Below, piece after piece: positions 1,920-40,877 of a stretch of 64,000 nucleotides of DNA (position 1 is its first letter; every line of letters starts with the position of its first letter). The position numbers and the translations under genes are program-made. Below the pieces are notes generated by a model. That model had not been told where the DNA came from. It worked only from the letters and a program-made list of their open reading frames with translations, and did not search any database. This DNA comes from Lunularia cruciata (lineage: Eukaryota; Streptophyta; Marchantiopsida; Lunulariales; Lunulariaceae). Location of the stretch: positions 3,415,001 to 3,479,000 of the forward strand of contig OX419758.1 in the NCBI GenBank assembly GCA_948567375.1. The letters are read 5' to 3'.

Positions 1920-2427
1920 TATGGTGCCCACATTTTTTGTTTTTTTTCAAATTAGAGAAGAAGAAGTGTATAGAGAAGTCGGATTGTGCCTGTATGGCCG
2001 AAGAAGGCAAAGAAAAGAGTCTTCGGGATAAAACCCAAAGTAAAGTGACTTTGGGTCATAAGGCAAAGTACTCGGAAATGCCCTATTAGCATACAACCCG
2101 AGGTAAGGAGTCTTCATATCGGGGGAGCTCAACCCGAGGTGAAGTCAATCTAACAACCTTTTGTCGGGAGGAGAAATTCAAGAAGGGACGGTTCAAAACC
2201 GGCGGCCCATACGCATGAAGTTTGATTGACAATGACAGGTGCATGCAAGAGGTGTGATTTCTCGGTAGAAACTTGAAGTGAAGAAAGACAAAGAAAGTGC
2301 AACTCTATAAAAATCAAACTCGCAATGAAGAAATATCAAGCAATTTTCCTTTGCCATTGAGAAGTTGTCTTGTAGGTGATCATGGGAAGGGAAATAGAGT
2401 TGGAAACGCGTTAGTGTGTAAGGGAGA

Positions 2428-2550
2428 AGTTGCAAGAGTGAAATCGAGAGACAGTGAGAAGGCATGAGAGATGAGAGGAGGAAAGAATTCTTCTTTCCTC
2501 TTCTCGTCTCTCCTGCCTTCTCACTGTCTCTCGATTTCACTCTTGCAACT
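2428..2550. repeat. Near-perfect hairpin inside LLR3
   Basis: Bases 2428-2463 and 2515-2550 are perfect 36-nt reverse complements. The 51 bases between them are themselves mostly self-complementary, closing on a few bases near GAATTC. The matching place in the LLR1 3' LTR (about 11640-11720) has no such palindrome, so the fold-back is specific to this copy. It looks like a template-switch product rather than a conserved structure. Confidence 0.85.
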
Positions 2551-2559
2551 TTCCAAATT

Positions 2560-3226: not shown

Positions 3227-3388
3227 TACATTTTGCAAATCAGAAGCACCGACGAGTACTACAAGAAGACAGGGAAGACTATGGAGATCAAAGTGAGTAC
3301 TCCAAACTCAAAGAAGAGAAGTCGGCAGGGCAAAGCCAAATATAGGAAGAAACCTCGGAAGACAAGAAGAGGAAACCTGAGGTGAGGT

Positions 3389-4426: not shown

Positions 4427-4891
4427 GAGAGGAAGATGAGATTGGAGCCGTTGAAGGAGATAGTCCTTAAGATGAACGCAATGTTGAGTACAGAGGCCAG
4501 CATTTGGATTGAAGAGATGAGGTTGCATGAGTTGAAATTGTTGGTGTAGGAGACAAGGCAAAGACAAGCGAAAGATACTGATTTGAATGCCTTGTTGATC
4601 AGTCTCTGGACTCATGTAGACAGGAAGATCTTAGAAGAAGAAGATAATATTGCAATTAGATTAGACTTAGTGAAAATAGAGATAGAAAAACTTTGGAAAG
4701 ATGTTAGAGCAAAACCCAAAGTAGATAACATAGGAGTGCAGATGTCTTTGGAGTTAGAGATGGGGACATTAGAGAAGAGTGGATCGAGAGATGAAGAGTT
4801 AGATAGATTACCCACTAGTGCAATTTTTAAATCAAGAAAGAGAATTGCTGGATCTGGTAGAAGAAGTAGAAGATACGAAACCCGAGGATAG

Positions 4892-5759
4892 AGTAGTAGG
4901 AAGTAAATTTACTTTGGGTTCGGGTTTGAAAGCCGATGACAAAGTAGACATTGGATCCGAGTAGTAACAATTTTGAGATTTGAAGAGGCAGATATGAAGA
5001 GGTGCATTGACATTTTGGATCTGCAGGTTAGAAGAGTTGTTGTAGGACGGTATAGTTGTTAGAATTGTCGATTTGTTCACTACTTAAGAGTGGCATTCGC
5101 AGTAAAATGTTATTCAGTGCTCATTATTTCTGAGAATAGATAAAGCAAAGTGCTGTGAAGCAGTGCTCGTTGCTTAAGCTTGATTCCGAGTATCAACTTT
5201 TTGTTTGTGTTTGTGAGTGTTTGGAGAAATTCAAAATGAAAATCAGTGTTCTTGTTGGATGTTGGATTCCGCAACCTTGATCTTCATTTTATGTGTTTGA
5301 TCTTGAGTGAAGTGCAATCAAAGCAATGCCTTGACAGATCTGAGAGGAATTGTAGTGTTGGTAGTATTCTGCATTTGTGAGTGTAGTGCAAAGTTGATGT
5401 GAAGCAATTTTGATTGAGAAAGTTGTGCCTTCAGTGGAGGGGTGGAACACAATTTTGAGGCAAAGTCATTTTGCAGTGAAGTGCCATTTTTTGAAAAGAG
5501 CCTGAATCATCACAATCAAGATTGTTTGGAAAGATTTGATGGAGTTGTGATTAAGGAGTGAATTCGTGACAAGATTATGAATCAGTGCTTGTTACTCTCT
5601 TCTGGGTGTGGTTTCTACCTGAGAGATTATAGACGCAACCAAGAAGAACTAAAATGTTACTATTTGACTTTGTATTTGACCAATTCTGACTCGTATCTAT
5701 GCGGGAACAAACTTTACTTACCCGATTACCGCAAAAGTGATATTTGCCGGGTTGTCACA
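4892..5759 (+). other. Non-coding 3' part of the LLR3 LTR
   Basis: No conserved frame continues here. The segment is shared with 8323-9230 and 28329-29120 in inverted orientation and ends at the LTR terminus. It presumably holds transcription start or end signals of the LTR, but I could not pick out a convincing TATA box or polyadenylation signal. Confidence 0.5.
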
Positions 5760-5764
5760 TGGTC

Positions 5765-6373
5765 CAAACTTGGGACCTTGATATGATGGGCTTGATGGAG
5801 GCTGTATTTCTTGGGTTTGGTATACCGTCTCTTCTTCTTTGCCTTGATCCCATCCTGGAACCCAATTTATTTGTTGCACTGGAAATGTCATGCAAGTTAA
5901 ACACTCCGTATTAGCGTGGCCAGATTTACCACACGCAGTGCACCATACATTTGGTCACCCAAATGATGGGGGTTTTCTTTGGTCCTTCGCCCCAATCATC
6001 TGGATCTTAAAATCCACAAACTCTTTAATAAGAGTTTCCAACTTTTGATACACCTTAGATACATTCTTTACTGGCGGTGTTACTGGCTTCTTTCCTCCGT
6101 GTCTTCGTCTTTTTCTCGGCTAGGGTTCTTTGTCGGATTCCAAAGAAGAACTAGAAGATGTGGAGGATTCTTTCGAAGAAGGAGAAGTACTACATGAAGC
6201 TCTTCATCTTGGCTTTTTGCCTTTCTTCTCATAATTTCTTTGGTTACTGGACGAGTTAAAATGAGCCGCCTCATATTGGGCAACATGTTTGAGAACTTTG
6301 TCTAGAGAAGTTACATTCCTCTCCTTGGCAAAGATTTGAATCTCTGGTGAAAGCCTGCCAAGAAACCAGAAAC
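5765..6373 (-). mobile_element. LLR2 gag part, resumed
   Basis: Immediately after the right-hand TGGTC, the minus strand resumes the gag sequence interrupted at 1919. It matches LLR1 bases from about 16668 to 17250, including the Ser/Glu-rich linker and the region before the zinc knuckles. It is decayed, with several breaks. On its far side it adjoins LLR2 LTR sequence directly. Confidence 0.8.
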
Positions 6374-16200: not shown

Positions 16201-17472
16201 CTATCTCTTTGCCTTTTGGGAAGACGACAAGGTCATACTCAGTTCTTCGGGATCACGCTTCTTCTTGGTGGAGCGTGTCTCAACTTTCAAAATTTCAAGG
16301 TTTGGCCATTCTCCTTCTGAGGCCGGACTCCCTTCTTGAGGTCTTTCTTCCTCAAGAGTTATACAATTTACATTTGTATCCCCCTTTGGCTGAAGTGCTG
16401 CACGCTCAGCGGGGGTCTGTACATATTTTACAAGAGGCTTTGGGTTTGGCGGGTGAGGGCATTGGTTGCCCGTATGCCCCAATCCTTTACAATTTCCACA
16501 CAGGAGAACGTACCCAATTTGCCTTCTTGGCTTGGGACAATTTGGAGACCAATGTCCCATCGAGCCACAATTATAACAGGCTCCGGGCGCAACATTCTGA
16601 GGGCGATTTTGGTTGCTCATCGGTGGTCTTTGTGTAGGAGCATTGGGGTTATACTCCCTGGGTCCAAACCTCGGACCTTGATACGATGTGCTCGGTTGAG
16701 GCTATACCTCTTGAGTTTGGTACACCGCCTCTTTGTCCTTGTCTTGGTTCCATCCCGGAACCCAATCAATTTGTTGCACCGGGAATGCATTACAAGTATT
16801 GCATTCTGTGTTGGCATGGCCGGATTTGCCACATGCGGTGCACCACACATTAGATCGTCCAAATGCTGGGGCCTTTTTTTGGTCCTTAGCCCCAATCATT
16901 TGGATCTTGAAATCCGAAAACTCCTTGATGAGGGCATCCAGCTTCGTATCCGCCTTATGTACACTCTTGGCTAGTGGAGTCATTGGTTTCTTGCCTCTAC
17001 GTCTTCTGACTCATCTTGGCTTTGATTCTTCTTCGGATTCCAAAGAAGAGCTCGAAGACGTAGAGGATTTGTTCGAAGAAGGGGAGGTGCTGCGTGAAGC
17101 TCTCCTTCTGGGCTTCTTACCCTTCTCCTCCCAATTTCTCCGGTTACCGGCAGAGTGAGAGTGGGCCGCTTCATAACGAGTGACATGTTTGAGTACTTTA
17201 TCCAAGGAAGTTATGTTCCTCTCCCTGGCAAAGATTCGTATCTCTGGTGAAAGGCCCCTGAGGAACCAGGTAATGGCTTGGGCATCGGAGTATCCCACCA
17301 CCCCCGATTGCTTGGGAACTCGGTTCAATAATGCCATGAACCGCTCAGAGTAGTCTCTCAACTTCTCTTTCTTGCCCCGGTCCAAATCGTTTAGTGCCGC
17401 GAAGACACTCGTATCATAGTCAACCTCCCGGAATCATTCCAGGAAGTTGTTTCTCAAGTCTGCCCAGTCCAA
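16201..17472 (-). mobile_element. LLR1 gag, C-terminal part with three zinc knuckles
   Basis: The minus strand reads DRGKKEKLRDYSERFMALL and ITWFLRGLSPEIRIFARE, standard plant gypsy gag motifs. A Ser/Arg-rich linker follows, then three CCHC knuckles: CTACGKSGHANTEC (about 16842-16801), CYNCGSMGHWSPNC (16578-16537) and CGNCKGLGHTGNQC (16500-16459). Three knuckles is more than the usual one or two. Gag forms the particle and binds RNA through the knuckles. The N-terminal part lies at 27420 and above, separated by MTR1. A few breaks are present. Confidence 0.87.
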
Positions 17473-17923
17473 TGTGTCACGCCATTTGTAGTTCCGCATC
17501 TAGATGCTCGGACACTGGAGTTCCAGTGATGGTAGTTAGAGTTATTCTAGCTGTTTCTCAGGGACTACTTTCCGATGGTTAGATTTCGTGTTCGGGGTAC
17601 TGACTTCACGGTGGGGCCCACCGTCACTTTGCACTGTTTGCACCGTCAAGTGTGCCGTCAGTGGGACCGTTAGGGTTTCAGGGCTAGCTTGAGTCCAGGG
17701 GGTATAGTTTCGAAGTGAGCTCCAGAGAGCTCACTTCTCTGATGTTGAGCCTTCGAGTTCTTGGCTATGGTGGACAGAGGCCGGCGAGCGTCACCTGGAT
17801 TCTCTATGCTTGAGTGGGTGTGGCTTGACTGTAATCAGTGCCCAGTTGTTGGCAGTTTATAGAGTGACAGATCAAGTACTGATCTGAGTTGAGTTGAGTT
17901 GAGAATGTTAAGCAATCTGATTA
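17473..17923 (+). repeat. MTR1 terminal block A1
   Basis: This 451-bp block starts TGTCACGCCATTTGTAG and ends at AAGCAATCTGATTA. It recurs near the 3' end as A2 (26865-27313) with roughly ten differences in the stretches I compared. Unlike a normal 5' LTR it is not preceded or followed by block B. A1 in MTR2 (39651-40093) starts at exactly the same base, so this is the true 5' end of the family. Confidence 0.9.
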
Positions 17924-19187
17924 CATCAGAGAAGTGAAGTCAGGGGGAAATCGGGTGCAGGAACGTTGAGTGTTGGTAGTATCTCCAAGCTCGGTGGATC
18001 GTGGTAGCTCGATTCAGGTTCTGTGTTTCCCTAGTGTGCAGAACTCGTGTAGTTGATGCAAATTTGGCAGTTAGGCGGACGGTGTGCGGAAGCGCTGGCC
18101 AAATTTCGAGCAAAGAAGAAGCAAATTTTCGAGCAGTGTTGTGATTTTGAGCTCAGGAGGTGAAGGCAGGACCAATTTGCTACGAGTTGGGCTCAAAAAG
18201 TGAAATTGAAGGTGGAGTTGGAAAGCTCTTCTCATGAAATTGTGATTTGGAAAAACCCGTTTTGTCAATTTGGCTCGAGTGGAAAGTTAGCGGGGGATTT
18301 GGCGGACATCCATCTTTAGGGTTTACGTCAGATTTTACGTCAGATTTACGTCAGATTTTGGGCCAGAATTGGAGGAGTTTCGCTGTTTGGCCAGATTTGG
18401 AGAAGTTTCGCTAGTTTGGAGGAGTTTCGCAGATTTAGAGAAGTTTCGCCAATTTTGGAGGAGGTTCGAAGTGGCAACAAGAAAGGCCTCATTTGGCTGA
18501 ATTTTGGTGTTTAGAGGCTTCGAGGCATAGGGCTGTGGGCTACGAAGGCCTAGAAGGGCCAGAAGGGCCAGCAAGCCAGCTTGCTGGCGTGAGGCTAGCT
18601 AGTTTAGTGTAGATCTTGGTCATTGGTTGGCAAAATCTGCCTTTGTTGCTAGATTGTGCGCAACAGGGTTTGACCCCTAGATCTCTTGTTCCTAGACTGG
18701 TGCCCTAGCCAACTGGTCCACCCTCACTTGTTGTCATAGTGACTGTGCCACTGTTATCTATACACATGTAGCTTTGGCTAGGAGAGGCAGTTTGATCCCA
18801 TTCTTGGTGATCCTGGTAGCTTAGGACTTAGATACGAACTACTCTTATGTCAAATGCCAAATGGTGGCAGAGTCAGTCCCGTGTTGTGTTATGAGATGGA
18901 GGGTTTTCGTTTAGATTTCTTGTGATTTGATCCCCTCCATTCTCTGCTTCCTGTTTGTGCACCACGTTTGTGTGAGGTGCCTTGACTTTTGAGCGTTGGT
19001 GCTCTGGTGTGCTCTCGATAGTGAGGCTGGAGTGATGACCAGTCAGACTACCTTTGTTTCTCTCCGGTGAGGCAGGAAGTGATGACCTGCAGACCGTGAG
19101 AGTGCGTGTTATGATGGCAGGTTACAGGTTGCCCTTCCCCTAGTGTAGTTATCTCGGTTAGAGTTACATTAGTGGGTGGTGTTTTAG
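17924..19187 (+). other. MTR1 leader between A1 and gag
   Basis: There is no open frame that I can support. It holds short internal repeats: TTTACGTCAGATT repeated three times (about 18325-18358) and GGAGGAGTTTCGC / GGAGAAGTTTCGC motifs (about 18371-18450), plus GGCC-rich palindromic bits near 18550-18590. A possible primer-like string TGGTGGCAGAGTC lies at 18862-18874. The 5' half is shared with MTR2 (40094-40540). Confidence 0.6.
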
Positions 19188-20927
19188 TTGGTGTTGGCAC
19201 GCGGTGGTGTTGGCACTTGGTGGGGCACTTGCGGTTGCGACTTGCTGTTGCAGTTGGTGGTTCGGGTTTGTTGGTGTGGTTACTTTGTCACGACGGAGTT
19301 CTTTGGAGATTCCAGAGGAGTTAGCCCTGCAGTACGCAGTGGGTTTACTCGGAGTGGTGCTCGGTATCAGCCTGTATCTCAGGTCCCAGTGAGGGAGGAG
19401 ATTGACTCTGAGTTGGAGTTTGACACAAGAGCTGATTCAGTTGAGAGTGCACTTGGTGTGTCCGCACCGTTGTTGTGGGACATGGACGAGATTTATGGGG
19501 CCTCCAAAGGCCCTAGGCGTTACTCTGGTACAGTGGGTACCATTGAGTTGGATGACTTCATCCAGGAGTTCGATAGTTGGTGTGATCTGCAGCAGATGCG
19601 GAACCCAACTTTGTTCACACCCTTCATGGCATGGAAGGGGTTGTTTCAGCACTTGGAGGGTCCACCGATGGACGACTACCATGAGTTCAGGAGAGCTCAT
19701 TTGGAGGAGATTGAGTTATGGAGACAGTATTGGTCTCCACACTATGTCTCCATCACTTCAGGTTCGGTGGCCAGGAGTAGGTCGGCTATACCTACGAGTT
19801 CTAGCTCGAGTAGTGTTGGTGGAGCTAGTGGAGGTGCACTAGCTGGAGATAGTGCTACTACGAGTGGAGGTACCGCTGCAGGAGGTGGTGTGGTACCGGG
19901 GTTTAACCCCATGGTTGAGTTCTTCCTATGTTTGAGGCAGAACTACCAGGGAGTGCGGACTGACAAGCTGAGGAGCTTGCAGGAGTTCCAGCGGAAGGCT
20001 GGAGAGAGCCTACGCGAGGCATACACTCGCATGAGGCGGCTGATCAGTTTCACTCAGGGAGTTACTGAGGCCCAGGCAGTCCAGTTTTGGTATGGGATAC
20101 TGGACAGGGAGTTGCGACGTAGAGTTCGTGATGCTACGTTGTTGCAGGCTACTTCGCCCACTTTGGCAGTAGTCTTTGGTTTGGCTGAGCGTATTGAGCT
20201 CAACATGGTGGAGGAGAGAGTGGTGACATCTGGATTTGGTAGAGAGACCTCATCCACCGTTGTGACTTCTTCTAGAGTGCAGCAGAGTGCACCACGCCCA
20301 GTTGGTTTTCGAGGACAGGGTGGACAGCCCAGATCCTATGGAGCGAGTGGAGGGCCTAGTGGAGTTAGACCCTTACCCTCATTTTTGGGGCAGCAACAGC
20401 CAGTGAGTGGTGGTGTTGCTTGTTGGACTTGTGGTGGACCTCACCATAGGAGAGAGTGTACTCAGGGCAGCGGACCTGATACCTCTGGTGCATCACAGCC
20501 AGCACAGAGGCAGTGTGAGCACTGCCATAGATTTGGTCATACTAGTGACCGGTGTTTTGACCTACACCCGGAGTTACGGAGTGGTAGGGCTGCTATGGCA
20601 GGTAGTAGAGGAGCTCCAGTTCATGGAGGACGAGGTGGTAGAGGTGGTGGTAGAGGATCTACACCTAGTAGGGGTGCAGTACCTGCCCTTACTTCTGACA
20701 CAGCTATGGCTACTCGGATTGAGCAGTTGGAGCAGAGATTGGCTAGTATGGCTATTGCTCATAGGAGATCAGATTCGGGTGCTGAGGCTTCCACCTCATA
20801 TGCTGGTGATAGAGATGCTTTGGACTTCATGTGCGGAGCAGCACAGGTGGATGCATCTGCAGCAGTGACTAGGAGTGCAGTATGTGCTCCAGAGCCTAGA
20901 GGAGCATCAGTGGAGTTGGACCCATAG
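19188..20927 (+). mobile_element. MTR1 gag (579 codons)
   Basis: An open stretch with an N-terminal part, then a retrotransposon gag domain at about residues 120-350 (FIQEFDSWCDLQQ, RSLQEFQRKAGESLREAYTR, VQFWYGILDRELRRRV). Two CCHC-type knuckles follow: CWTCGGPHHRREC, a spacing variant, and canonical CEHCHRFGHTSDRC. An RG-rich tract (HGGRGGRGGGRGSTPSRG) and a short helical segment (RIEQLEQRLASMAIA) complete it. Gag would build the particle and bind RNA through the knuckles and RG tract. The start used is the first ATG of the open stretch; the true start may lie downstream, because the first ~40 residues are low-complexity. The matching region in MTR2 is at 47559-48420. Confidence 0.85.
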
Positions 20928-21428
20928 AGAGGAGAGGTTGGGAGACAGGTCAGACTTCCCCAATCTTTCACGTTATCTGAGGCATTGCAGACGACATCCA
21001 TGGTTCCTAGACGTCCCAGTGCAGGTGTGGTAGGTGGTGATGGAGTACTTGATGGAGTACCTGCTAGTCAGCCACCTGCTACTACACAGATTGAGTCTAG
21101 CATGATGTTAGGGGCGGCTCAGCTGATTATGCGGCATCCTTTATTTTCAGCCAGTGACATGTTTACATTGGGAGTGGACCCAGCCCCAGTGTTCCGGTTG
21201 GCTGCCACGTTGTGTGAGAGTAGGGATGGTGCAGTTCCTACTACTAGAGCAGAGGTGGTTGGTAGTGGAGCTGACTTGGTTGAGGAGCATGGGATCCGTT
21301 CAGTGACCAGTGGTTTATGGCAGGCAGCAGCGGATAGACTGGAGGAGTTGCCAGCTAGACCGGCCTTTGAGAGAGCGCGGTTTACACCTGGTGTTGTCCT
21401 ATTGGATAACTAGAGGGGGATCTTTCGT

Positions 21429-21659
21429 TTGGTAGGACCTTTAGGGAAGGTCTATACACCACAGAGAGTCTTGTTAGACTCTGGTGCGCAGCCCCTTATG
21501 TTGGGGAAGGCTGCAGTTGTTGGTCTAGAGTTACGGAAGACCGATGTGGAGAGGTGTCCATTTCAGATCCAGACATCTCTTGGTGGTGGTTCGACACAGT
21601 ACATCACACGTGGAGAGCTTGTTGTCCAGGTTTAGCCTGGTCATCCGACTGATAGCTCG
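21429..21659 (+). mobile_element. MTR1 aspartic protease region
   Basis: The forward frame gives GKVYTPQRVLLDSGAQPLML, in which DSGA is the retropepsin active-site motif. GLELRKTDVERCPFQIQTSL and a flap-like GGGSTQYITRGELVVQV follow. The protease continues into the frame at 21660 with VLVGRAVLYPMGFSIDYW, matching the hydrophobic-Gly end of gypsy proteases. It would cleave the gag-pol polyprotein. The same arrangement occurs in MTR2 (about 48900-49250). Confidence 0.82.
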
Positions 21660-22190
21660 GTGGTGAGAGCTCAAGCTATTGCGACGATAGCTGAGTCCTA
21701 TGATGTGCTAGTTGGGAGAGCAGTGTTATACCCTATGGGTTTCAGTATTGACTATTGGGAGGAGACAGCCTCTTATAGACCTGGTTGGCAGTCTGGTGAG
21801 GGACAGGTATGTCGCCTACCAGTACGCTTCAGTAGTGGCAGTCTTGGCTCACTACAGTCCGGGACCATGGCAGCATCAGTTTTGGCTTTCAGCGGTGCAG
21901 TTACTTGGCCTGGTGACTTGTTGGAGGGGAACGCCCATGCAGAGGATACTCCAATACCAGAGGAGATCACTCGGCTATGGAGTACGAGTGGGATTGTTCC
22001 ATCCACCTTGGATGTTCCATTGTGGAGTTCAGAGGAGGCATTGCAGCAGCATGCAGATCAGTTGGTGCAGCAGGCTTGGAGTGGAGCCTTCGTACCATCA
22101 GGGGATGAGTGTGAGGATGAGCCTCCAGAGGCGATTGCTTTGACACCTCTGGATACCACACTCATGGCTTGGCAGTATCCAGTAGAGGGG

Positions 22191-23222
22191 ATATGCCTAT
22201 TGGAGTTGTTTGGTGGGATCAGCACCGGACTAGCTGCGGTGTTACAGGCGGGTATCCGAGTACAGAGGTACTTGTATGTAGAGAGAGATGAGACTGCTAG
22301 GCGAGTCTCTCTACATCATGTGGCACACTTGGCCTATCGGTATCCGGAGTTATTACCGATGTCAGCAGTCAGAGGTTACCAGAAGGCCTTACCAGGAGAC
22401 ATTTCCTTACTGGGGGCGCATGACCTAGAGAGACATGGGCCTGTTCACTTGGTGATTTTTGGATGGCCATGTCAGGGACATACACGTGCGGGCCGTGGTT
22501 TGGGTCTTCAGGATCCTTGTTCTGGTGTGTTTTGGGAGATGTTACGAATACTACGACATCTCCAGGTTCATCAGTCTGTTTCTCCAGCTTACCTTTTGGA
22601 GAACATTCCATTGATGGGTGATTCCCGTACTAGAGTGGTGGCGAGTACACATCAGGTCCATTCATGGATGGGACCTGCTGTATTGTTAGATGCAGCCAGA
22701 GTGGGATCACGGGCTCATCATCTTCGTCTTTGGTGGACAAACCTCTTACCCAGAGAGGTTCTACAGCGTGCTTATGATGGGATTCAGCGACTGGACCACA
22801 TTCTTGTTGATGATATCTTGGATGTTGGGCGTCAGTCTCAGACAGTGGTAGTGGCTGATAGGTCACCCATGGCAGTGGTGAACCTAGTTGGACAGCCTAG
22901 AGCTGCATTTCCCACACTCATGAGTTTCCCAGGCTCTCATGCTTTTCGAGAGGGAGGACCTGGACTTGTTTGGGACTCACAGTTACAGCAGTTGGTGGAG
23001 CCCAATGCTGATGAGAGAGAGCGGGCGATGGGTTTTCGCACCGGTATTACCGCTATTCCAGCAGTGTCAGAGGCATCCAGGCGTCAGGTGTTAGGTCAGG
23101 CTATGGACCTGAACTGTTTGACCTGGATTGTGAGCCTTGGTTTGGCAGAGCAGCGTAGGATGCGCTTGATAGGCATCACCACTCGGACACTTGTGAGCCC
23201 TGTGCCTATCGAGACGATTTAG
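22191..23222 (+). mobile_element. MTR1 cytosine-5 DNA methyltransferase domain, between protease and RT
   Basis: The second two-thirds of an open stretch (21660-23222) carries the ordered motifs of C5-cytosine methyltransferases. Motif I is LLELFGGISTGLAAVLQAGI (from about 22194), the AdoMet-binding loop. VERDETARRV follows, with the acidic residue expected at motif II. Motif IV is FGWPCQGHTRAGRG, with its catalytic Cys codon at 22470-22472. Motif VI is LLENIP (ENI at 22599-22607), an RxHHLRLWW segment sits in the place of motif VIII, and a C-terminal ERERAMGFRTGIT resembles motifs IX/X. The stretch between IV and VI (RGLGLQDPCSGVFWEMLRIL) resembles DNMT3/DRM-type enzymes more than DNMT1, a by-eye inference. 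It would transfer methyl groups from AdoMet to cytosine in DNA. No separate target-recognition insert or CXXC/BAH domain is seen. Confidence 0.88.
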
Positions 23223-23582
23223 GCACATGCTGGGGGCGATGGACCGAGTAGACATGGTATTCTTGGGACACATCCAGTAGCTACTAGGGAGAGTGGTCTA
23301 CTTGGAGTCCATCCAGGTGAGCGTGGGCTACTTGGATTACACCCTTGGTCCACATGGGATGCAGCCAGAGGACGTATGGAGCTTGCAGCCAGAGTGGAGG
23401 GAGTTTTTCACACAGAGGTTGGGACCTCTAGTGGTCGGGAGCATGACACCATTGCTCCCAAGGGCCCAGTATAGCAGCCAGTCAGTACGTCTTCCACTCC
23501 TACTACAGTTACAAAGGATACTTGGGAGCCAGATCTTGGACCCAAGCTTACTGGAGAGGAAAGACGGAGGGTTTGGAGGTTC

Positions 23583-24960
23583 TTGAGGAGTCACACAAGT
23601 TGTTTTGCCTTCAATATGAAGGATTTGGGTGCTCTGAAGGGACCTGGTATACGGATTGAGCTGACTAGCGACACACCAGTTTTCCGACGTCCTTATCGAT
23701 ATAGTGAGATGGAGAGGACATTGATTCAGAGCCAAAGTAGTGACCTTTTTGAGGCTGGTTTGGTGGAGATTTCACATGGAGAGTATGCATCAGCGATAGT
23801 GATGCCAGCCAAGAAGGATATGCATGGCAACTATACATATAGGCGGATGTGTGGAGATTACCGTCCTATCAACCGACAGACCAGGGCTGATCGGTATGCC
23901 ATGCCTACACCGGAGGAGATTTTTGATGCGATTGGGCATGCAAAGGTCTTCAGTACTTTGGATCTTTGAGCGGGATATCATCAGTTGCCGATCAGGGAGG
24001 AAGATAAGTCCAAGATAGCATTTTGGGCTATTGATCCTCACGGCAAGGATGTGTTATATCAGTGGAGATTCTTACCATTTGGGTTGAAGAATGCTCCTGC
24101 TGAGTTCCAGAGGGTCATGGATAGGATCCTAGCTGGATTGGATTTTGCTCGGTGCTATATTGATGACATTTTGGTGTATAGCACTACTGTGAAGGAGCAT
24201 GAGAGACAGTTGTTGGAGGTGTTTGAGAGGTTGAGATCTCATGGACTCAAATTACATCCTGGGAAGTGTAGGTTCTTCCATGAGCAGGTTGAGTATTTGG
24301 GTCACACTATCTACCCCGGAGGACTTGGTGTTCAGCAGACTAAGGTGGAGGCTATTGCACGTATTCCTCGGCCTACGGATGTGAGCAGAGTGCGAGCATT
24401 CCTTGGGTTGGCAAACTTCTATCGCCGCTATGTTAGAGGATTTAGTGCCATTGCCAAGGCCTTGACGAAGCTGACCAAGCTTACACAGGAGTGGTGTTGG
24501 GGAGATGAGCAGGAGAGAGCTTTTGTAGAGCTCAAGGAGAGGTTGACATCTACTCCTATTTTGAGGAGACCGATCAGGGGACGACCATTTCAGGTTCACA
24601 CTGATTGGAGTATGTTGGGGCTTGGAGCGGTGCTCACCCAACATGATGATGAGGAGAAGGAGTTTGTGGTGGCCTATGCTAGTCGCTCCAACAATTCAGC
24701 GGAGGCGAAGTATAGTTCATATGAGGGAGAGTGCTTGGCAGCAGTTTGGGCAGTAGCACATTTCCGATATTACCTATTTGGTAACCCCTTCACTCTCATC
24801 ACTGATCATCAGCCGCTGAAGTGGTTGATGGAGTCCGACAAGCTTTCAGGGAAGCTTGCACGATGGGCTCTGATTTTACAGGAGTATGATTTCACGGTTG
24901 TTCACAGACCTGGAGTGGTGAACCGTGATGCAGATGGGTTGAGTAGAAACCCATGTCCCA
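23583..24960 (+). mobile_element. MTR1 reverse transcriptase and RNase H
   Basis: RT begins with GPGIRIELTSDTPVFRRPYR, then YRRMCGDYRPINRQT, FLPFGLKNAPAEFQRVMDRI and the catalytic box CYIDDILVYS (YIDD, about 24155-24180). It continues through LHPGKCRFFHEQVEYLGH and AFLGLANFYRRYVRGF. RNase H follows with VHTDWSMLGLGAVLTQ, ASRSNNSAEAKYSSYEGE, TDHQPLKWL and NRDADGLSR. These are clear Ty3/gypsy motifs. Together they copy element RNA to DNA and remove the RNA strand. One or two breaks lie in the RT part. Confidence 0.93.
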
Positions 24961-25329
24961 GCCAGCAGGATCAGACCGGAGCACGTTGGCATGGTGAGAC
25001 AGATGGGGAGATGGTGCCAGGTTGGCATGCATCGGCCTTTCTGTGTATATTTGCAGAGACTTTGGTGGTATCTCTCTCAGCGCATACAGGAGGAGTTATT
25101 GAGGTCACAGATCCAGAGAGTGAAGATATTGGTACAGTTCAGCGAGACATTCATGATGATGTCTTAGTGATGGACTATCTTCGCACTGGTGTTGTGGGTG
25201 GCACAGTTGGGGCCAAGGAGAGAGACCGTGTTCTTCAGCGGGCCAGACGGTTCAGATTGGAGGGTAGACACCTTTTGCGTGTATGGGAGGATGGTAGAGT
25301 GCGAGTAGTACCACTTCCATCACAGAGAC

Positions 25330-26400
25330 CACAGTTGGTCCGTCATGCTCATGAGGAGCTAGGACATTTTGGAGTAAAGCGTACATATAGCTTACTCCAG
25401 AGTCATTATTGGTGGCACGGTATGCAGACCGAGGTACAGCAGTTTGTTGCCAGATGTGTGGTTTGTGACCGAGTTAGAGCATCATTCAATGCTCCTACGC
25501 CACAGTTACACCCATTACCTATCATGGGATTGGGTTACCGTTGGAGTTTGGACTTCGCCGGACCTTTACCGCTGACTGTGAGACATCATTGGTATGTTTT
25601 GGTGATGGTGGAGCACTTCTCCAAGTGGATTGAGTTGGTGGCACTTCCTGACAAGTCTAGTGAAGGGACAGCTTACTCGTTCCTGGATCGAGTTCTTAGT
25701 CATTTTGGTGCACCAGCTGAGGTTTTGACTGATCAGGGTACAGAGTTCTTGGGAGAGTTTCAGGTCTTGTGTGACAAGGCTTTGATTGATCATCGTACTA
25801 CATCCCGAGATCACCCTGAGGCAGATGGCTTAGCAGAGAGAGTGGTTCAGACGGTGAAGAGAGGATTGCGAAAGTATGGTTTGCAGAGAGGCCACTTGGG
25901 AGATTGGGATCTCCAGTTACCTTGGTTGGCCATGGGCTATCGGTTCAGCCGGCAAGCCTCCTTAGCATCCTTCTCTCCATACTTTCTACTCTATGGACGA
26001 GATCCAGATTTACCTGCAGCCATTCATCGAGATGCTACTGTAGTTTTGGACTTGGATGACCCTGATGTATGGATGAGTGCATGTTCTCAGCGGGCAGAGA
26101 TCTTTCAGAGAGTGATGCCGATGGCCTTCGAGAACTTGGCGATTGCTCAGCATAGAGATACTTTACACTATGCTACCATTCGAGGAGGAGGTTATAGACC
26201 CTCGATCCGTCGATTTCATCCAGGCGACTATGTATATCTACAGCAGATAGCACCAATGACACTTGATGTTTCTACAGGCCGCACTATCTTGAGAGTGCAC
26301 GAGGTTTTGCCATCTGGAGTCCTTGTGTTAGAAGGACGTGATGGTGTTGTTTGGAAGGATCATGTGCGCAATTGTGCGCCATGCCACCTTCCAAACATTG
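25330..26400 (+). mobile_element. MTR1 DDE integrase
   Basis: The HHCC zinc finger reads HAHEELGHFGVKRTY ... HYWWHGMQTEV ... CVVCDRVRASFN. The catalytic core shows SLDFAGPLPL (first Asp), LTDQGTEFLGEF (second Asp) and HPEADGLAERVVQTVKRGL (Glu). The C-terminal part has RRFHPGDYVYLQQIAP, the GPY/F-like region of Ty3/gypsy integrases. This places the element among DDE-integrase LTR retrotransposons rather than tyrosine-recombinase elements, although its terminal repeats are unusual. Open throughout in this copy. Confidence 0.93.
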
Positions 26401-26429
26401 ATGGTACTATGGACCCAAGCTTGGCACTT

Positions 26430-26588
26430 GTACGTGCAGGCTTGAGGTGTATGTTATGTGGCTCTTCTGGTGGAGCTGCTACTATGTTAGTGTGTGATAG
26501 TTGTTTGAGAGGATGGCATATGGCATGTATGACTCCTCCCCTCAAGGTGGTTCCTCAGGGACAGTGGTTATGTCCTAGATGTACTTGA
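26430..26588 (+). mobile_element. MTR1 C-terminal PHD finger
   Basis: The polyprotein ends in a Cys/His array: CMLCGSSGGAATMLVCDSC, then LRGWHMACMTPPL, then WLCPRCT. The pattern C-x2-C ... C-x2-C-x4-H-x2-C ... W-x-C-x2-C is that of a PHD finger (C4HC3). It has the aromatic residue (GWH) and the W two residues before the last CxxC that are typical of the fold. PHD fingers often read histone H3 tails. It occupies the place where chromoviruses carry a chromodomain, so a targeting role in integration is a reasonable inference. The same finger closes MTR2 (53938-54077), and a decayed start of it is seen in MTR3 next to 35333. Confidence 0.87.
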
Positions 26589-26741
26589 CCTATAGCTAGT
26601 TCATTCTTTATATGGTATAGATTGCAGACAGGCGACTAACGATGGGGCTCCATAGCACCCGGCCTCCTGATCTTTGCCCATTAGAGGGTATACCATATAC
26701 TTAGAGTAGATGGCTATTTGGAGTTAGAGGGACCTAACCGC

Positions 26742-26757
26742 CAGCTAGGGGGGCGAT
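26742..26757 (+). other. Purine-rich tract before MTR1 block B1
   Basis: CTAGGGGGGCGAT lies directly before TGTGGCAC, the start of B1. MTR2 has the same tract (CTAGGGGGGCGCT, about 54233-54246). Position and composition fit a polypurine tract, which would make B1 the start of the 3' terminal unit. Confidence 0.7.
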
Positions 26758-26862
26758 TGTGGCACTTTAGAGTCTATGTATGACTTATGTGTGAGTTGTG
26801 CTTTTATAGTATATGATGTTGACAGCGATGTATGTTGTGTAGCGATGTATATACGCACGACA
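26758..26862 (+). repeat. MTR1 terminal block B1 (105 bp)
   Basis: Starts TGTGGCACTTTAGAG and ends CGCACGACA. It recurs as B2 at 27315-27419. B1 reads TATAGTATATGATG and GTGTAGCGATG where B2 reads TATAGTGTATGATG and GTGTAGTGATG. The same two distinctions separate B1 and B2 in MTR2. Confidence 0.9.
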
Positions 26863-26864
26863 AT

Positions 26865-27313
26865 TGTCACGCCATTTGTAGTTCTGCATCTAGATGCTCA
26901 GACACTGGAGTTCCAGTGATGGTAGTTAGAGTTATTCTAGCTGTTTCTCAGGGACTACTTTCCGATGGTTAGATTTCGTGTTCGGGGTACTGACTTCACG
27001 GTGGGGCCCACCGTCACTTTGCACCATTTGCACCGTCGAGTGTGCCATCAGCGAGACCGTTAGGGTTTCAGGGCTAGCTCGAGTCCAGGGGGTATAGTTT
27101 TGAAGTGAGCTCCAGAGAGCTCATTTCTCTGATGTTGAGCCTTCGAGTTCCTGGCTATGGTGGACAGAGGCCGGCGAGCGTCACCTGGATTCTCTATGCT
27201 TGAGTGGGTGTGGCTTGACTGTAATCAGTGCCCAGTTGTTGGCAGTTTATAGAGTGACAGATCAAGTACTGATCTGAGTTGAGTTGAGTTGAGAATGTTA
27301 AGCAATCTGATTA
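26865..27313 (+). repeat. MTR1 terminal block A2
   Basis: Second copy of the 0.45-kb block that opens the element, here enclosed between B1 and B2. A 2-bp spacer (AT in MTR1, GC in MTR2) separates it from B1. It ends at CTGATTA and then passes directly into B2, whereas A1 at the 5' end continues into the leader. Confidence 0.9.
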
Positions 27314-27314
27314 T

Positions 27315-27419
27315 TGTGGCACTTTAGAGTCTATGTATGACTTATGTGTGAGTTGTGCTTTTATAGTGTATGATGTTGACAGCGATGTATGTTGTGTAGT
27401 GATGTATATACGCACGACA
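27315..27419 (+). repeat. MTR1 terminal block B2 and 3' end
   Basis: Second copy of block B. The element ends at CGCACGACA, and LLR1 gag resumes at 27420 with AATGGTACAAACC. MTR2 ends at the homologous base. Confidence 0.9.
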
Positions 27420-28302
27420 AATGGTACAAACCCCTTTTGAGTCACATGGGTGTACCAGCTCCAAGCTTTCTTGCGAAGCAAACTTGGAAAAATTCTTAGT
27501 CAATCCGCCGAGTCATGCTCCTTGTTACCAAAGGAGATGACTTCGAATTCTTTGATGAATTCATCGGGGTCTTCGTCTTGTTCTGTCTCCTTATACTTCT
27601 GATAGGCGTGTCAAGTGACAGGAAGCAAAGTCATCATTCGATGCATTGGGATTGGCTGAGGTAATGTGGAACTTGACGGAACGGAAGAATTGGCTGGAAT
27701 TGACGCCGTGTTGTCAGCCCAGGGATTCCAATTCGTCAAATTCAATGCAAGGTCTTCTTCGACAATTTCTACTCTGAGAGGGTCGACTTCAACCCGAGTG
27801 GAAGATTCAGGATCAACACCTTTAATACGTTCTTCCAAATTCCTTCGGGACAACCGAGGAATCGTTCGTAGAAGATGTTGACACTCGTCTTCAGTAAGTG
27901 TGCGTGCTGTCTTTTCTCAAACAAAGGTCTTCAAGGAAACAACTTCCTTTACAGCTCTAGGGGAAGTTGGTGTACTAGACCACAATGCATATGTTTGCCC
28001 ACTTGATTCTTTCTTCTTCTTGGAAGAAGAGGGAGATGCAAAGTAGCCTTGCCAACCACCTTCGCGTTTCTTGTGATCAAGTTCTCATAGGGCTTCTTGC
28101 ACTTCGTGAAGGAGTTGAAACTCCAACGCCTCTCGCTCAGTTTCGTCAACAATGGATGGGATGTTCAGACGTTTGTCTTCTTCACGCTGAAGTGCTCGTC
28201 TTTGAGCTCTCTCTTCCCTTTGTTCTTTCAATCCAGACATTCATATTGCCTTGATACCCAGTTTCCAATTTGGCTTCGTATTCTTCCACTTCCGAGATTT
28301 GT
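27420..28302 (-). mobile_element. LLR1 gag, N-terminal part
   Basis: On the minus strand, next to the MTR1 junction, the frame reads RKKAWSWYTHVTQKGFVP, the usual gag segment before WADLRNNFLEWF, which is found across MTR1 at 17472 and below. Upstream is an acidic, Ser/Pro-rich region (27853-27611). The first ~300 bases after the primer site are the untranslated leader and gag start. There are a few breaks. Confidence 0.8.
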
Positions 28303-34935: not shown

Positions 34936-34936
34936 A

Positions 34937-35332
34937 TGTAAAAGACCAAGATCAAGGAGAAATAGGAGAATGGAAGATCACATTGGGACACTTGAGTATG
35001 GAAAACTCCAAATGTCTAGCATGAGCTTCCGTTTTGGTATTTATAGGGAACATACAAGGCTCTTGAGAGCTTCTCAAGAAGCTTCCTTGAGCCGCTTTCA
35101 TGGAGTGCAAGCCAAGTTAAAGGGAAAGTTTCCTTCTAGAAGTTGCCTACTTGGTGTGCAAACTAAGCTAGTTGGAAGCTTCTAAAAGCTACCTACTTGG
35201 ATGCAAGCTAAGCTAGTTGAGAAGCTTCCCAAGAAGCTTCCTAGATACTTCTAGAATATTTTAGGCTACTTTGGCCTATTTATTACTTTGTTAACCCTAA
35301 CTAACTTAGTCACTAAACTCCATATTGTTACA
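34937..35332 (-). mobile_element. Element F 5' LTR (396 bp)
   Basis: TGTAACAATATGG...GGTCTTTTACA on the minus strand, the same family as solo LTR D (38050-38477). It is full of AAGCTT-containing short repeats. It abuts MTR3 sequence at 35333; CTAAC at 35333-35337 is presumably one copy of its target duplication, the other being outside the window. Confidence 0.85.
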
Positions 35333-38049
35333 CTAACATAGTAGTAGCTCTTCCATAAGAGCCATATAACATACACTGCAAGCTTGCTTGTACAAGTGCC
35401 AAGCTTAGATCCATAGTACCATTAATTTTTGGGAGGTGGCATGGTGCACAATTGTGCACATGATCCTTCCAAAGAACACCATCATGTCCTTCCAACATAA
35501 GGACTCTAGAAGGCAAAACCTCACACATTCTCAAGATAGTGCGCCTCGTAGTAACATCAAGTGTTGTTGGTGTTGTTTGTTGTAGATATACATAGTCACC
35601 TAGATGAAATTGACAGATTGTGGGTCTATAACTTCCTCCTCAAATAGTAGCATAACATAAGGTATCCTTATATTGAGCAATCACCAAGTTCTTAGAGACC
35701 ATTGACATCACTCTCCAAAAGATCTTTGTCTATTAAGAACATGCACTCACCCATATGTTTGGATCATCAAAGTCCAAAACTACAATAGCATCTTGAAAAA
35801 TGGATGCAGGTAAATTTGGATCTCATCCATAGAGAAGAAAGGAAGGAGAGAAGGATGCTAAGGAGGCTTGCTGGCTGAACCAATAGCTTATGGCCAACCA
35901 AGGTAATTGGAGACCACCAATCTCCAAAGTGGAATCTTTGCAAACTATACATATGCAATCTTCTCTTCACCATTTGAACCACTCTCTCTGCTAAGCCATC
36001 TACCTTAGGGTGATCTTGGAAGTTAGTATGATGGTCAATCAAAGCCTTGTCACACAAGACCTGAAACTCCTCCAAGAACTTTGTATCCTAATTAGTCAAA
36101 ATCTATATTAGTGCACCAAAATTACTAAGAACCCAATCCAAGAATGAGTAAGCCATCCCTTCATTGGACTTGCCAAGAAGTACCACCAACTCAATCCACT
36201 TGGAGAAGTGCTCCACCATAACCAAAACATGCAGATGTCTCACAATCAATAATGAAGGGTCAACAAAGTCCAAACTCTAATGATAACCCAACTCCATGAT
36301 AGATAATGGGCGTAGTTGTGGTGTAAGAGCATTTGATGATGCTTTAACTTGGTCATGAACCACACATTTGGCAACAAATTGCTATATATTGGTTTGCATA
36401 CCATGGCACCAATAATGACTATGGAGAAAGCTATATGTGTGTTTTACTCCAAAATGTCCTAGCTCCTCATGAGCATGATGGACCAATTGTGGTCTCTAAG
36501 ATGGAAGTTGTACTACTTGGACTCTACCATTCTCTCATACACAAAGAAGGTGTTTGCCCTCTAATCTGAACCACATGGCTTGTTGAAGAATATAGTCTCT
36601 CTCCTTGACCCCAACTGTGCCACCCACAACACCAGTGCAAAGATAATCCATCACTTAGACACCACTATGAATGTCTTGCTGAACTGTACCACTATCTCCA
36701 CCCTTTGGATATGTTACCTCAATAAGTTCTCTTATATGCATTGAGAGAGATACTACCAAAGCGTCAAAGAATATACATAGAAAGGTAGATGCATGCCAAC
36801 TTAGCACCATCTCCTCATCTATCTCACCATGCCAATGTTCTTTGGTCCAATCCTATTGGTTGGGATATGGGTTTCTACTTAACCCATCTATATCATGGTT
36901 CACTACTCCAGGTTTGTAAATATCATGAAATCATACTCTTGTTAAATTAGATCCCATTGTGCAAGCTTCCTTGAAAGCTTGTTGGACTCCATCAACCACT
37001 TTGGTGGTTGATGATCAATGATGAGAGTAAAGGGGTTAATAGGTAACATATATGCTATTGCCCATACTACTACCAAACACTCTCCCTTATATGAACTACA
37101 ATTTGCCTCTATTGAATTTTTGGAGTGATTAGCATAGGTTACCATCAACTCCTTCCTCTCATCATTATGTTGGGTGTGCACTACTCCAAGCTCCAACTTA
37201 CTCCAGTCAGTGTGAACCTAGAATGATCATCCTCTAATTGGTCTCCTAAGAATAAAGGTAAATCTCAACCTCTTCTTGAGCTCTATAAAAAGCTCTCTCT
37301 TGCTCATCTCCCCAACACCACTCATTAATTAGCTTTGTAAGCTTAATTAGCTTTGTTAAGGCCTTGGCAATGGCACTAAATCCTCTAATAGAGCGGCAAT
37401 AGAAGTTTGCCAACCCAAGGAATGCTTGCACTTTGCTTACAATTGTAAGCTGAGGAATATGTGCAATAGCCTCCACCTTGGTTTGTTGAACACAAAGTCC
37501 TCCAGAGTAGATAGTATGACCCAAATACTCAACTCGCTTGAAGAAGAATCTACACTTCCTAGGATATAATTTGAGTCCATGAGATCTCAATCTCTCAAAC
37601 ACCACCAACAAATGTCTCTCATGCTCCTCTATAGTAGTGCTATAGACCAAAATGTCATCAATATAACACCAAGCAAAATCCCAATCAATCCAATCTTGTC
37701 CATGATCCTCTAGAACTTGGCAAGAGTGTTCTTTAACCTAAATGTAAGAATCTCCACTAATATAATACATCCTTGTTGTGAGGATCAATAACCCAAAATG
37801 TTATCTTGGACTTATACTCCTCCCTAATCTGCAATTGATGATATCTTGCTCAAAGATCCAAAGTACTAAAGACCTTTGCATGACAAATTTCATCAAAGAT
37901 TTCCTTGAGTGTAGGTATGGCATACCAATCAGCCCTAGTTTGTTGGTTGATATGATGGTAATCTCCACATATCCACCTACTTGTGCAATTTCCATGCATA
38001 TCTTTCTTTGTTTGCATCACTATAGCTAATGCATACTCTACATGTGAAA

Positions 38050-38477
38050 TGTAACAATATGGAGTTTAGCGACGAAGTTAGTAGGGTTAACAAAGCTATC
38101 AAATAAGACAAATTAACCTAGAATATTCCAAAAGTATCTAGGAAGCTTCTTGGGAAGCTTCCCGACTAGCTTAGCTTGCACATCAAGTAAGTAGCTTCTA
38201 GTAGGAAGCTTCTAGAAGCTTCTAACTAGCTTAGCTTGCACGCCAAGTAGACGGCTTTTAAAAGAAAGCTTCTTGGGAAGCTTCCTAGTTAACTTGGCTT
38301 GCACTCTAAGAAAATGGCTCAAGGAAGCTTCTTGAGAAACTTCTCAAGGGCCTTGTATGCTACTGATAAGTACCAAAGCCAAAGCTCATGCTAGGCATTT
38401 GGAATTTTCTCATATTCAAGTGTCCCAATTTGAGGTTTCCATTCTCCTATTTCACTCCTTGGTCTTGATCTTTTACA
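38050..38477 (+). mobile_element. Solo LTR D (F family), 428 bp
   Basis: Starts TGTAACAATATGG and ends GATCTTTTACA. It matches the F LTR in opposite orientation and is flanked by TGAAA on both sides (38045-38049 and 38478-38482). It contains repeated AAGCTTC and TAGCTTAGCTTGCAC words. It lies inside the RT region of MTR3. Confidence 0.92.
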
Positions 38478-39646
38478 TGAAATCTCTACCAAATCAGCCT
38501 CAAAAAGGTCTCTACTCTTGCTTTGAATCAATATTCTCTCCATGTCACTATATCTATAGGGACTTAAAAAAACTAGTGTGTCATTAGTAAGCTCAATCCA
38601 AATACCAAGTCCTTTTAGAGCACCCAAATCCTTCATATTGAAGGTAAAACAACTCATATAGCTCCTCACTAACCTCCAAACTCTTTGTCTTTCCACTCCT
38701 GTAAGCTTAGGTCCAAGATATGGCTCCCAAGTATCCCTTATAACTAATGTAGGAGTAGAAGATGTATTGACTGGCTGCTACATTGGGTCATTGGGAGCAA
38801 CCTTAGTGTAGAAAACTCCTTCCGATTTGACTACAAGCTCCATATGTCCTCTAGTTGCATCCCAAGTAGACCAAGGGTGTAACCCAAGTAAACCACACTC
38901 ACCTAGATTGATCCCAAGTAGACTACTCTCACCAATAGCCACTAGTTGTGTCCCAAGAATACCCTACCTACTTGGTCCATTGCTCCCAACATGTGCCTAA
39001 ATTGTGTCAATAAGCACAAAGCTCACAAGTGTCCAAGTAATGATGCTTATCAAGTGCATCATATGCAACTCTACCAAGCCAAGGCTCATAATCCAAGTCA
39101 AATAGCTTAGCTTGACTTAACATTTGAAGCATGGATACCTCTAACACTATTGTAACAACGATAATACCAATGTAAAAACCCATCATCTGCTCCCTCTCAT
39201 TTGCATTGAGTTCCACCAACTATTATAATTGTGATTCCCAAATAAGTCCAAGTCCTCCTTCTTGAAAAGCATGAGATCATGGGAAACTCATAAGTGTAGG
39301 TAAAGCAACTCTAGATTGTCCAACAAGGTTCATCACTACCATAAGTGACCTATCAGCCGCTACTACCATTTGAGATTGGTACCCAACATCCAAAATGTCA
39401 TCAACAATAAAGTGGTCTAGTCATTGAATCCCATCATAAGCATGTTGTAAAATCTCTGTAAGTAAGACGTTTGTCCACCAAAGATAAAGACGATGAGCCC
39501 GTGATCCCACTTTGGTTGCATCCAATAACATGGTAGGTCCCATCCAAGAATGAACCTAATGTGTATTCACTACCACTAGAGTACAATAATCATCCATCAA
39601 AGAGGACATTCTCCAAAATGTAGGCTGAAGAAATAAATTGATGAAC

Positions 39647-39650
39647 CTAG
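39647..39650. repeat. 4-bp target duplication CTAG of MTR2 (partner 54908-54911)
   Basis: Identical four bases on both flanks; the fifth base differs. The pre-insertion sequence is inferred from the homologous stretch in MTR1, which supports four rather than five bases. Confidence 0.82.
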
Positions 39651-40540
39651 TGTCACGCCATTTGTAGTGCCGCATCTAGATGCTCGGACACTGGAGTTCT
39701 AGTGATAGTAGTTATTCTAGTAGTTTCTCAAAGACTACTTTCCGATGGTTAGATTTCGTGTTTGGGGTATTGACTTCACGGTGGGGCCCACCGTCACTTT
39801 GCACCATTTGCACCGTCGAGTGTGCCGTCTGTGGGACCGTTAGGGTTTCAAAGCTAGCTCAAGTCCAGGGGGTATAGTTTCGAAGTGAGCTCCAGAGAGC
39901 TCACTTCTCTGATGTTGAGCCTTCGAGTTCTTGGCTATGGTGGACAGAGGCCAATGAGCATCACCTGGATTCTCTATGCTTGAGTGGGTGTGGCTTGATT
40001 GTAATCAGTGCCCAATTGTTGGCAGTTTATAGAGTGACAGATCAAGTACCGATCTGAGTTGAGTTGAGTTGAGAGTGGTAAGCAATCTGATTACATCAGA
40101 GAAGTGCAGTTAGGGAGAAATCGGGTGTAGGAACTTTGAGTGTTGGTGGTATCTCCAAGCTCGGTGGATCGTTGGTAGCTCGATTCATGTTCAGTGTTTC
40201 CCTAGTGTGTAGAAGCTTGTTCAAGTGATGCAGATTTGGCAATTAGGCGAATGGTGTGCGGAAGCGCTGGCCAAATTTTGAGCAAAGAAGAAGCAAATTT
40301 TGAGCAGTGGTTGTAATTTTGAGCTCAAGAGGTGAAAGCAGGACCAATTTGCTGCGAGTTGTGCTTAGAAAGTCAAATTGAAGGTGGAGTTGGGAAGCTC
40401 TTCTCATGAATTTGTGATTTGGAAAAACCCGTGTTGTCAATTTGGCTTGAGTGGAAAGTTAGCGGGGGATTTGGCGGACAGCCATCTTTAGGGTTTATGT
40501 TAGATTTTGGCCAGATTTGGAAGAGTTTTGCTGTTTGGCC

Positions 40541-40877
40541 TGTAACACCCATTTGTGCATGTGTGTGGTATTGTGATATTTAGCTTGGTATTACAAGTAC
40601 TTAAGAGATATTATTTATATAGAGATAAAGGATGGTTCTATATTAGTCATGGTTAGCTAAAGTTAGTCATAGCTAAGATAGATGGGACCTTACTTTAGAG
40701 GAAGTAGAAAAGATGAGCACCACTATTTTGGATTTTAGTGTGTTGACTTGGTATTATTCCTAGGTGTTTGGCTTTGGGGAAAGAGTTGAGAACTCTTGGG
40801 CCCGCAAGCCTTTTTGTTTTGGATTCTTCTTTAGTCCAAGGATAGCCCATGTGAAGGAATCCTTGCTTTAGTGGTTG
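40541..40877 (+). repeat. Inverted LTR piece at the left end of H
   Basis: This is the reverse complement of 47222-47558, including the terminus TGTAACACCCATTTG, so both outer ends of H read TGTAACACCC inward. A normal LTR element would have its two LTRs in the same direction. Confidence 0.9.

Follow-up and report, generated by a model that had tools for sequence, protein, structure and literature searches.

Sequence comparisons confirmed that positions 22191-23222 of the 64,000-nucleotide stretch of Lunularia cruciata DNA analyzed here (the window) encode a DNMT3-type C5 cytosine methyltransferase within a Ty3/gypsy retrotransposon. The element, present in three copies termed MTR1, MTR2 and MTR3, is of a kind already known from Klebsormidium nitens, as judged by description, and the arrangement of its repeats suggests insertion from a circle that is cut within the element's own terminal repeat. 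This integration scheme is one that we infer from the present analysis and not one taken from published work. Retrotransposons carrying the type of enzyme that is used to silence them pose a puzzle, and such elements have been reported in a charophyte and in dinoflagellates. In the MTR family, nested copies let ends and target duplications be read directly, and the DIRS-like layout becomes a testable scheme of self-priming, an A-B LTR and circle integration at an internal palindrome. If it is true, integrase action on LTR ends would not be universal, and the methyltransferase would gain a defined DNA intermediate as its substrate.

The original prediction of a cytosine-5 methyltransferase located between the protease and the reverse transcriptase (RT) of a Ty3/gypsy element was borne out. 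The domain of MTR1 (22191-23219, forward strand; 343 aa with no internal stops, P0001) matched Pfam PF00145 above the cut-off (E 1.5e-5, 25 bits; cut-off 22), with a protease DSGA motif upstream and RT downstream. Its best solved relative in phmmer was DNMT3A (E 3.5e-10), and mammalian DNMT3A/3B ranked first among solved relatives both by sequence and by predicted fold. Ordered motifs I, IV and VI and a C-terminal motif IX/X-like segment had been proposed, and all of them were located in order: motif I at 22191-22217, motif IV (PCQ) at 22458-22478, motif VI (LLENI) at 22593-22607, motif VIII at 22710-22751 and motif IX from about 23022. They stand in the unpermuted order I, IV (PC), VI (EN), VIII, IX, and MTR1 retains the catalytic motifs. 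Neither an ADD nor a PWWP domain was found by Pfam scan of the open frame 21636-23219, and an NCBIfam search gave matches below the cut-off only. Searches for close relatives of the methyltransferase returned no pattern match in viral_contigs and 20 in genome_contigs, none of them confirmed.

The remaining coding regions of MTR1, all on the forward strand, are those of a gypsy element. A gag-like open stretch (19188-20927) matched Retrotrans_gag at E 0.017, below the Pfam cut-off, and contains two zinc-knuckle-like CCHC motifs (20421-20459 and 20514-20555, the second regular by eye), although Pfam gave no zinc-knuckle match in the gag region. The protease motif DSGA (21468-21491) was matched weakly by Pfam (E 0.065). 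Downstream of the methyltransferase, RT and RNase H (RH) occupy approximately 23601-25000 (Pfam; Ty3 7q5b), followed at 25001-26447 by an integrase with an H2C2 zinc domain and D-D-E residues that align to those of Ty3 (Pfam rve and H2C2); the segment 25860-26450 scanned alone gave no Pfam domain. The open reading frame from 23970 matched Ty3 7q5b with an E value of 6.1e-81, and RT-RNaseH-integrase was closest to Ty3 among solved structures. At the integrase C-terminus lies a PHD finger (26448-26585; PF00628, E 3.3e-10), whose nearest solved fingers include those of CHD4, MLL3, KDM5 and ATXR5 and which is also intact in MTR2 (E 6.5e-11). The finger occupies the position of the chromodomain in chromoviruses; no chromodomain was detected in the Pfam scans, which one too diverged for Pfam would escape. 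No tyrosine recombinase was found in the scanned frames, a search for RT-integrase relatives in viral_contigs gave a single, unconfirmed pattern match, and an Rfam search at gathering thresholds gave no match.

The methyltransferase had also been placed in one forward frame with gag, protease and RT. The frame itself is indeed the same, but it does not run unbroken into RT, as in-frame stops at 23220 (TAG), 23472 (TAG) and 23967 (TGA, within RT) are common to the three copies. Parallel decay would be expected to yield 0.31 triple stops at 81 CAG-type codons, compared to the two observed, and 0.17 at six CGA-type codons, compared to the one observed. The TAG at 23220-23222, which closes the methyltransferase frame in every copy, was taken as the real end of the gag-protease-methyltransferase frame, and the best explanation is that RT-RNaseH-integrase-PHD forms a second part beyond this shared stop; RT may then be expressed by readthrough, an internal start or splicing. 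The TGA at 23967, likewise shared by all three copies, counts against this explanation. Three further stops in the gag and protease regions of MTR1 are not found in all copies. Between the methyltransferase stop and RT (23223-23600), where the second of the shared stops lies, the lengths of MTR1 and MTR2 differ by one base.

The youngest copy, MTR1 (17475-27419, +), has TG...CA ends and is flanked by the 4-bp target duplication AATG (17471-17474 and 27420-27423). The older MTR2 (39651-54907, +), with the duplication CTAG (39647-39650 and 54908-54911), is nested in the methyltransferase of MTR3 and is itself interrupted at about 40518-47549 by another gypsy element. MTR3, the most diverged and most decayed copy, spans 59461 to 35330 on the reverse strand: its 5' part (54908-59461) comprises B1, gag, protease and the start of the methyltransferase, and its 3' part (35330-39650) holds the remaining methyltransferase and continues as far as the point where the PHD region begins, with a solo-LTR-like insert at about 38050-38478. 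No right end of MTR3 was found in the window. The earlier view of three copies of different age that carry the methyltransferase held for its presence, which is at the same element position in all three, although the enzymes of MTR2 (49681-50709, +) and MTR3 are decayed, with several in-frame stops each compared to none in MTR1, and that of MTR3 is split by MTR2. Taken with the profile, solved-structure and fold matches, the three copies uphold the methyltransferase as a stable part of the family.

Selection was assessed from transversions only, to avoid methylation decay, in a set of 15 uncorrected and non-independent tests. For the methyltransferase, 5 synonymous and 9 nonsynonymous transversions separate MTR1 and MTR2 (p 0.12), 13 and 25 separate MTR1 and MTR3 (p 0.026), and 13 and 34 separate MTR2 and MTR3 (p 0.079). 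Transversion dN/dS ranged from 0.44 to 0.59 over these three pairs, in which two of the copies are decayed, and p was below 0.05 in one pair. In the MTR1-MTR3 comparison, gag showed 20 synonymous and 24 nonsynonymous transversions (p 5.6e-5) and RT-RH 11 and 34 (p 0.081), and dN/dS was 0.47 for the methyltransferase vs. 0.57 for RT-RH. These values point to some, modest coding constraint, with the methyltransferase about as constrained as RT-RH. Purifying selection with Ka/Ks < 0.2 has been reported for the enzyme of the K. nitens element (PMC5890265); the weaker constraint seen here is as expected for decayed copies. That the enzyme rides along passively and contributes nothing to transposition would fit the modest constraint in three copies, two of them decayed. 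We consider it very unlikely, given the conserved place of the methyltransferase in all three copies, the catalytic motifs retained in MTR1, a dN/dS similar to that of RT-RH and the purifying selection reported in K. nitens (PMC5890265).

In the two copies with a right end present (MTR1 and MTR2), repeats follow the order B1-coding-A1-B2-A2. In MTR1, B1 lies at the left element end (17475-17922), A1 at 26756-26862 directly before B2 (26865-27312, a recurrence of B1), and A2, a recurrence of A1, directly after B2 at the right element end (27313-27419), all on the forward strand. The order is the same in MTR2, with A1, B2 and A2 at 54245-54351, 54354-54799 and 54800-54907 (+). MTR3 also begins with B1 and internal sequence, and beyond its left end there is no match to A or B. 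Target duplications of 4 bp surround the TG...CA ends in both testable copies, and the empty site of MTR2, supplied by the MTR3 flanks and seen in the homologous sequence of MTR1, contains a single CTAG-like tetramer. Since the duplications flank copies that end in A2, and since MTR2 is nested in the MTR3 methyltransferase, A2 belongs to the mobile unit. Further, divergence between A1 and A2 is close to that between B1 and B2 in each copy (3/107, 2.8%, and 12/444 compared bases, 2.7%, in MTR1; 5.7% and 7.6% in MTR2), which indicates that A2 arose with the insertion. An origin of A2 by tandem LTR duplication or assembly artefact was ruled out by the two copies with target duplications, one of them in a known empty site.

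The junction of A1 and B2 in MTR1, GACAATTGTC (26859-26868, +), is a palindrome (GACA-AT-TGTC) that matches both outer ends, and we propose it as the integrase site. The corresponding site of MTR2, GACAGCTATC, has lost its perfect symmetry (GACA-GC-TATC), which counts against the model and which we ascribe to decay. The join of B2 and A2 reads CTGATT|ATTGTGG in MTR1 and CTGATT|GATTGTGG in MTR2, a one-base difference between two copies.

Directly after B1 lies a predicted self-primed primer-binding site, ACATCAGAGAAGTGA (17923-17937, +), which is the perfect complement of a predicted self-primer within B (17731-17745, +), close to where the RNA is predicted to start, over 15 nt in MTR1 and 14 nt in MTR2. 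A 15-nt complement was reached in none of 2000 shuffles and in none of 174 other 50-nt windows, and MTR3 can form a duplex of 16 pairs, including three G-U pairs (by eye). Of the 15 self-primer pairs, 13 form in both the MFE and the centroid RNA folds; taken overall, the RNA fold shows no greater stability than shuffled sequences do (z -0.91; 37 of 200 shuffles equalled or exceeded it). An 11-nt inverted repeat at 17712-17737 (GAAGTGAGCTC...GAGCTCACTTC) overlaps the predicted self-primer and could, by eye, fold into a hairpin at the 5' end of the RNA. Priming by a tRNA at B1, as in an ordinary LTR, was rejected because the site instead fits B itself over 14-15 nt; by eye it also has a short similarity to an initiator-tRNA motif. 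At the other side of the coding region, the polypurine-tract candidate GGGGGG (26748-26753, +) is the only such run in MTR1, and it has a single counterpart in those portions of MTR2 that were searched, in both cases directly before A1. With a self-primer site after B1 and a unique G-run before A1, the LTR of reverse transcription would be A-B. The B2/A2 join falls at the ends predicted by the primer site and the G-run and varies by one base between copies, and for this reason we read it as ligated LTR ends. The inserted copies nevertheless begin with B and finish with A, which places integration at A/B, inside the A-B LTR.

The scheme that we favor, at a probability of roughly 0.55, is that of a streptophyte Ty3/gypsy element of the KnitGypsy-Dnmt3 kind with self-priming, an A-B LTR, circle integration at A/B, a particle-borne methyltransferase and a PHD tether. 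The element RNA would prime itself at the site directly after B1, and plus-strand synthesis from the G-run would give an ordinary linear DNA with an A-B LTR, whose ends would be joined (B/A) in a circle or concatemer. Integrase would then cut the GACA-AT-TGTC palindrome within the LTR (U3); if both strands were cut after CA, the products would carry 2-nt overhangs resembling normal processed ends, and opening of the end-joined circle or concatemer at A/B would yield the inserted form B-int-A-B-A. The methyltransferase would enter the particle together with gag and protease and methylate the DNA of the element itself, either prior to integration or at about that time, and the PHD finger would tether integrase to a histone state. 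End-joined LTR circles are usually a dead end for retroviruses. More tentatively, and at somewhat less than even odds, the attachment site has shifted from the LTR ends to the U3 palindrome, only the end-joined circle is productive, the DNMT3-type enzyme may act on this circle and the PHD finger may pick target chromatin; an integrase site moved into U3 would account for split repeats of DIRS-like form in an element that has no tyrosine recombinase. A two-LTR circle has two A/B sites, and use of the other would give B-A-B-int-A, which is seen at none of the three left ends; the model has no explanation for this.

The repeat order is also that of split direct repeats, and de Mendoza et al. likened the layout of the K. 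nitens element to DIRS (PMC5890265). Replication could thus be DIRS/Ngaro-like but use a DDE integrase: the A1-B2 junction would act as an internal splint for rebuilding the two ends of a near-full-length cDNA, and a canonical A-B LTR product would not arise. We regard this as unlikely, in view of the Ty3-like DDE integrase, the 4-bp duplications and the lack of a tyrosine recombinase in the scanned frames, of a self-primer site and unique G-run that coincide precisely with the termini of an A-B LTR, and of the difference in the B2/A2 join between two copies. DIRS retrotransposons are not known to produce a target duplication, in contrast to MTR, with its rve and H2C2 integrase and duplications in both testable copies; they carry a tyrosine recombinase (PMC5890265).

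Among the literature matches listed, one report of such elements was recognized (de Mendoza et al. 2018, PMC5890265), and it confirmed the suggested precedent of retrotransposon-borne methyltransferases in charophytes and dinoflagellates. KnitGypsy-Dnmt3 of K. nitens, a methyltransferase-bearing gypsy element, shares with MTR, compared by description only, the Ty3/gypsy content with a DDE integrase, a Dnmt3-type enzyme in the polyprotein, DIRS-like repeats (the Fig. 4 legend equates the repeat structure with that of DIRS) and CG and CHG methylation in the host. MTR differs in its PHD finger, as none is mentioned in the main text of that paper, and in a methyltransferase frame that ends at a stop before RT. 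The sections and passages of PMC5890265 covered here describe no primer site, self-priming, target duplication or layout mechanism for the gypsy element; the K. nitens enzyme showed no activity in yeast, a result that its authors deem inconclusive. PMC12344493 cites this work but terms the LTR elements Copia, where PMC5890265 has Gypsy. The dinoflagellate SymbioDIRS-Dnmt3 and SymbioLINE-Dnmt also carry a C5 methyltransferase, which in SymbioDIRS-Dnmt3 is again of Dnmt3 type with repeats in the order A-coding-B-A-B (PMC5890265), but they employ tyrosine recombinase (DIRS) or LINE machinery rather than the DDE integrase and gag-pol of MTR. Predicted self-priming is shared with the Ty3/gypsy chromoviruses Tf1/Sushi and Tcn1, the latter being the plant chromovirus lineage that self-primes (Neumann et al. 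2019, PMC6317226); unlike these, MTR combines a methyltransferase and split repeats with a PHD finger, and no chromodomain was detected in it.

Streptophyte methylation leads one to expect decay at CG and CHG sites. Relative to MTR1, C-to-T type changes affected 75/369 CG, 124/716 CHG and 67/2416 CHH sites in MTR2, and 204/424, 345/808 and 345/2695, respectively, in MTR3. Four controls in the window lack a methyltransferase. By symmetric count, the CG, CHG and CHH values were 52/372, 17/351 and 25/1560 for the pair of LTRs of the LTR-X element, 80/355, 66/395 and 239/1983 for the solo LTR-X, and 46/234, 40/255 and 173/1255 for an X-like pol pair; a 341-nt pair (0/4, 0/6 and 2/246) had too few changes. 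The order CG > CHG > CHH was found in three of the four, and since methyltransferase-free elements show the same context order, decay appears to be mainly a host property. CG/CHG decay was accordingly discarded as evidence of self-methylation. Speaking against full equivalence, the CHG value came closer to the CG value in MTR1-MTR2 (0.114 to 0.144) than it did for the two LTRs of LTR-X (0.048 to 0.140). The K. nitens host likewise has CG and CHG methylation (PMC5890265). Instead of acting on cDNA, the methyltransferase might promote silencing of its own copies, as self-limitation, or act on host chromatin. The CG/CHG decay of MTR copies and a PHD finger that could place the complex on chromatin are consistent with this, and slowed retrotransposition is discussed as one option in PMC5890265; we hold it to be doubtful, as decay is similar in elements of the window that have no methyltransferase.

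With regard to the donor of the enzyme, the MTR1 methyltransferase scored 87 bits against a viral-contig protein vs. 57 against DNMT3A in blastp. With tblastn, 186 phage records gave matches to it (E down to 1e-12), one of them over at least 80% of the query, and PHROG phrog_116 matched it at 1e-14, better than Pfam. MTR1 has PCQG, as do most aligned phage enzymes, whereas DNMT3A, with which identity is about 22-25% in structural alignments (DNMT3A/3B), has PCND at the same place. These scores, together with a tree, weakened capture of a host Dnmt3 as a proven origin. In that tree of 29 rows with a single eukaryotic enzyme, MTR and DNMT3A stood apart, on branches of 5.0 and 4.05 changes per column, the position of DNMT3A itself being unsure; the tool warned of long rows and letter make-up, and the viral rows, as the best-matching loci of the search, are a biased sample. 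The blastp scores, the phage and PHROG matches and the shared PCQG suggest that what was captured was not the host Dnmt3 but a DNMT3 relative of phage- or bacterium-like kind. This is nonetheless a possibility to which we give well under even odds: DNMT3A, too, is nearer to a phage protein (119 bits in blastp) than to MTR1, so that the phage-like family may simply evolve slowly, and only one eukaryotic enzyme was placed, on a very long branch.

Several other elements surround the MTR copies. MTR1 sits inside LTR-X, a large gypsy-like element on the reverse strand (8321-31713) with LTRs of about 3.4-3.9 kb that are about 96% identical, one of them containing a 113-nt tandem duplication, and with the 5-bp duplication TATCA. 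The LTR-X family is also represented by a solo LTR (1916-5761) in the opposite orientation, inserted in X-like pol sequence (5-1919 and 5761-6369). The gypsy element inside MTR2 (40518-47549), where about 1.7 kb of MTR2 is missing, has gag, protease, RT and integrase on the reverse strand and 341-nt LTR-like ends that are inverted and 99% identical; it perhaps represents two inverted insertions that recombined. Two inverted copies of an LTR-like sequence of roughly 430 nt are located at 38050-38478, inside MTR3 with the 5-bp duplication TGAAA, and at 34936-35332, where MTR3 ends. Finally, a perfect (GA) microsatellite of about 28 units is found at 62596-62652.
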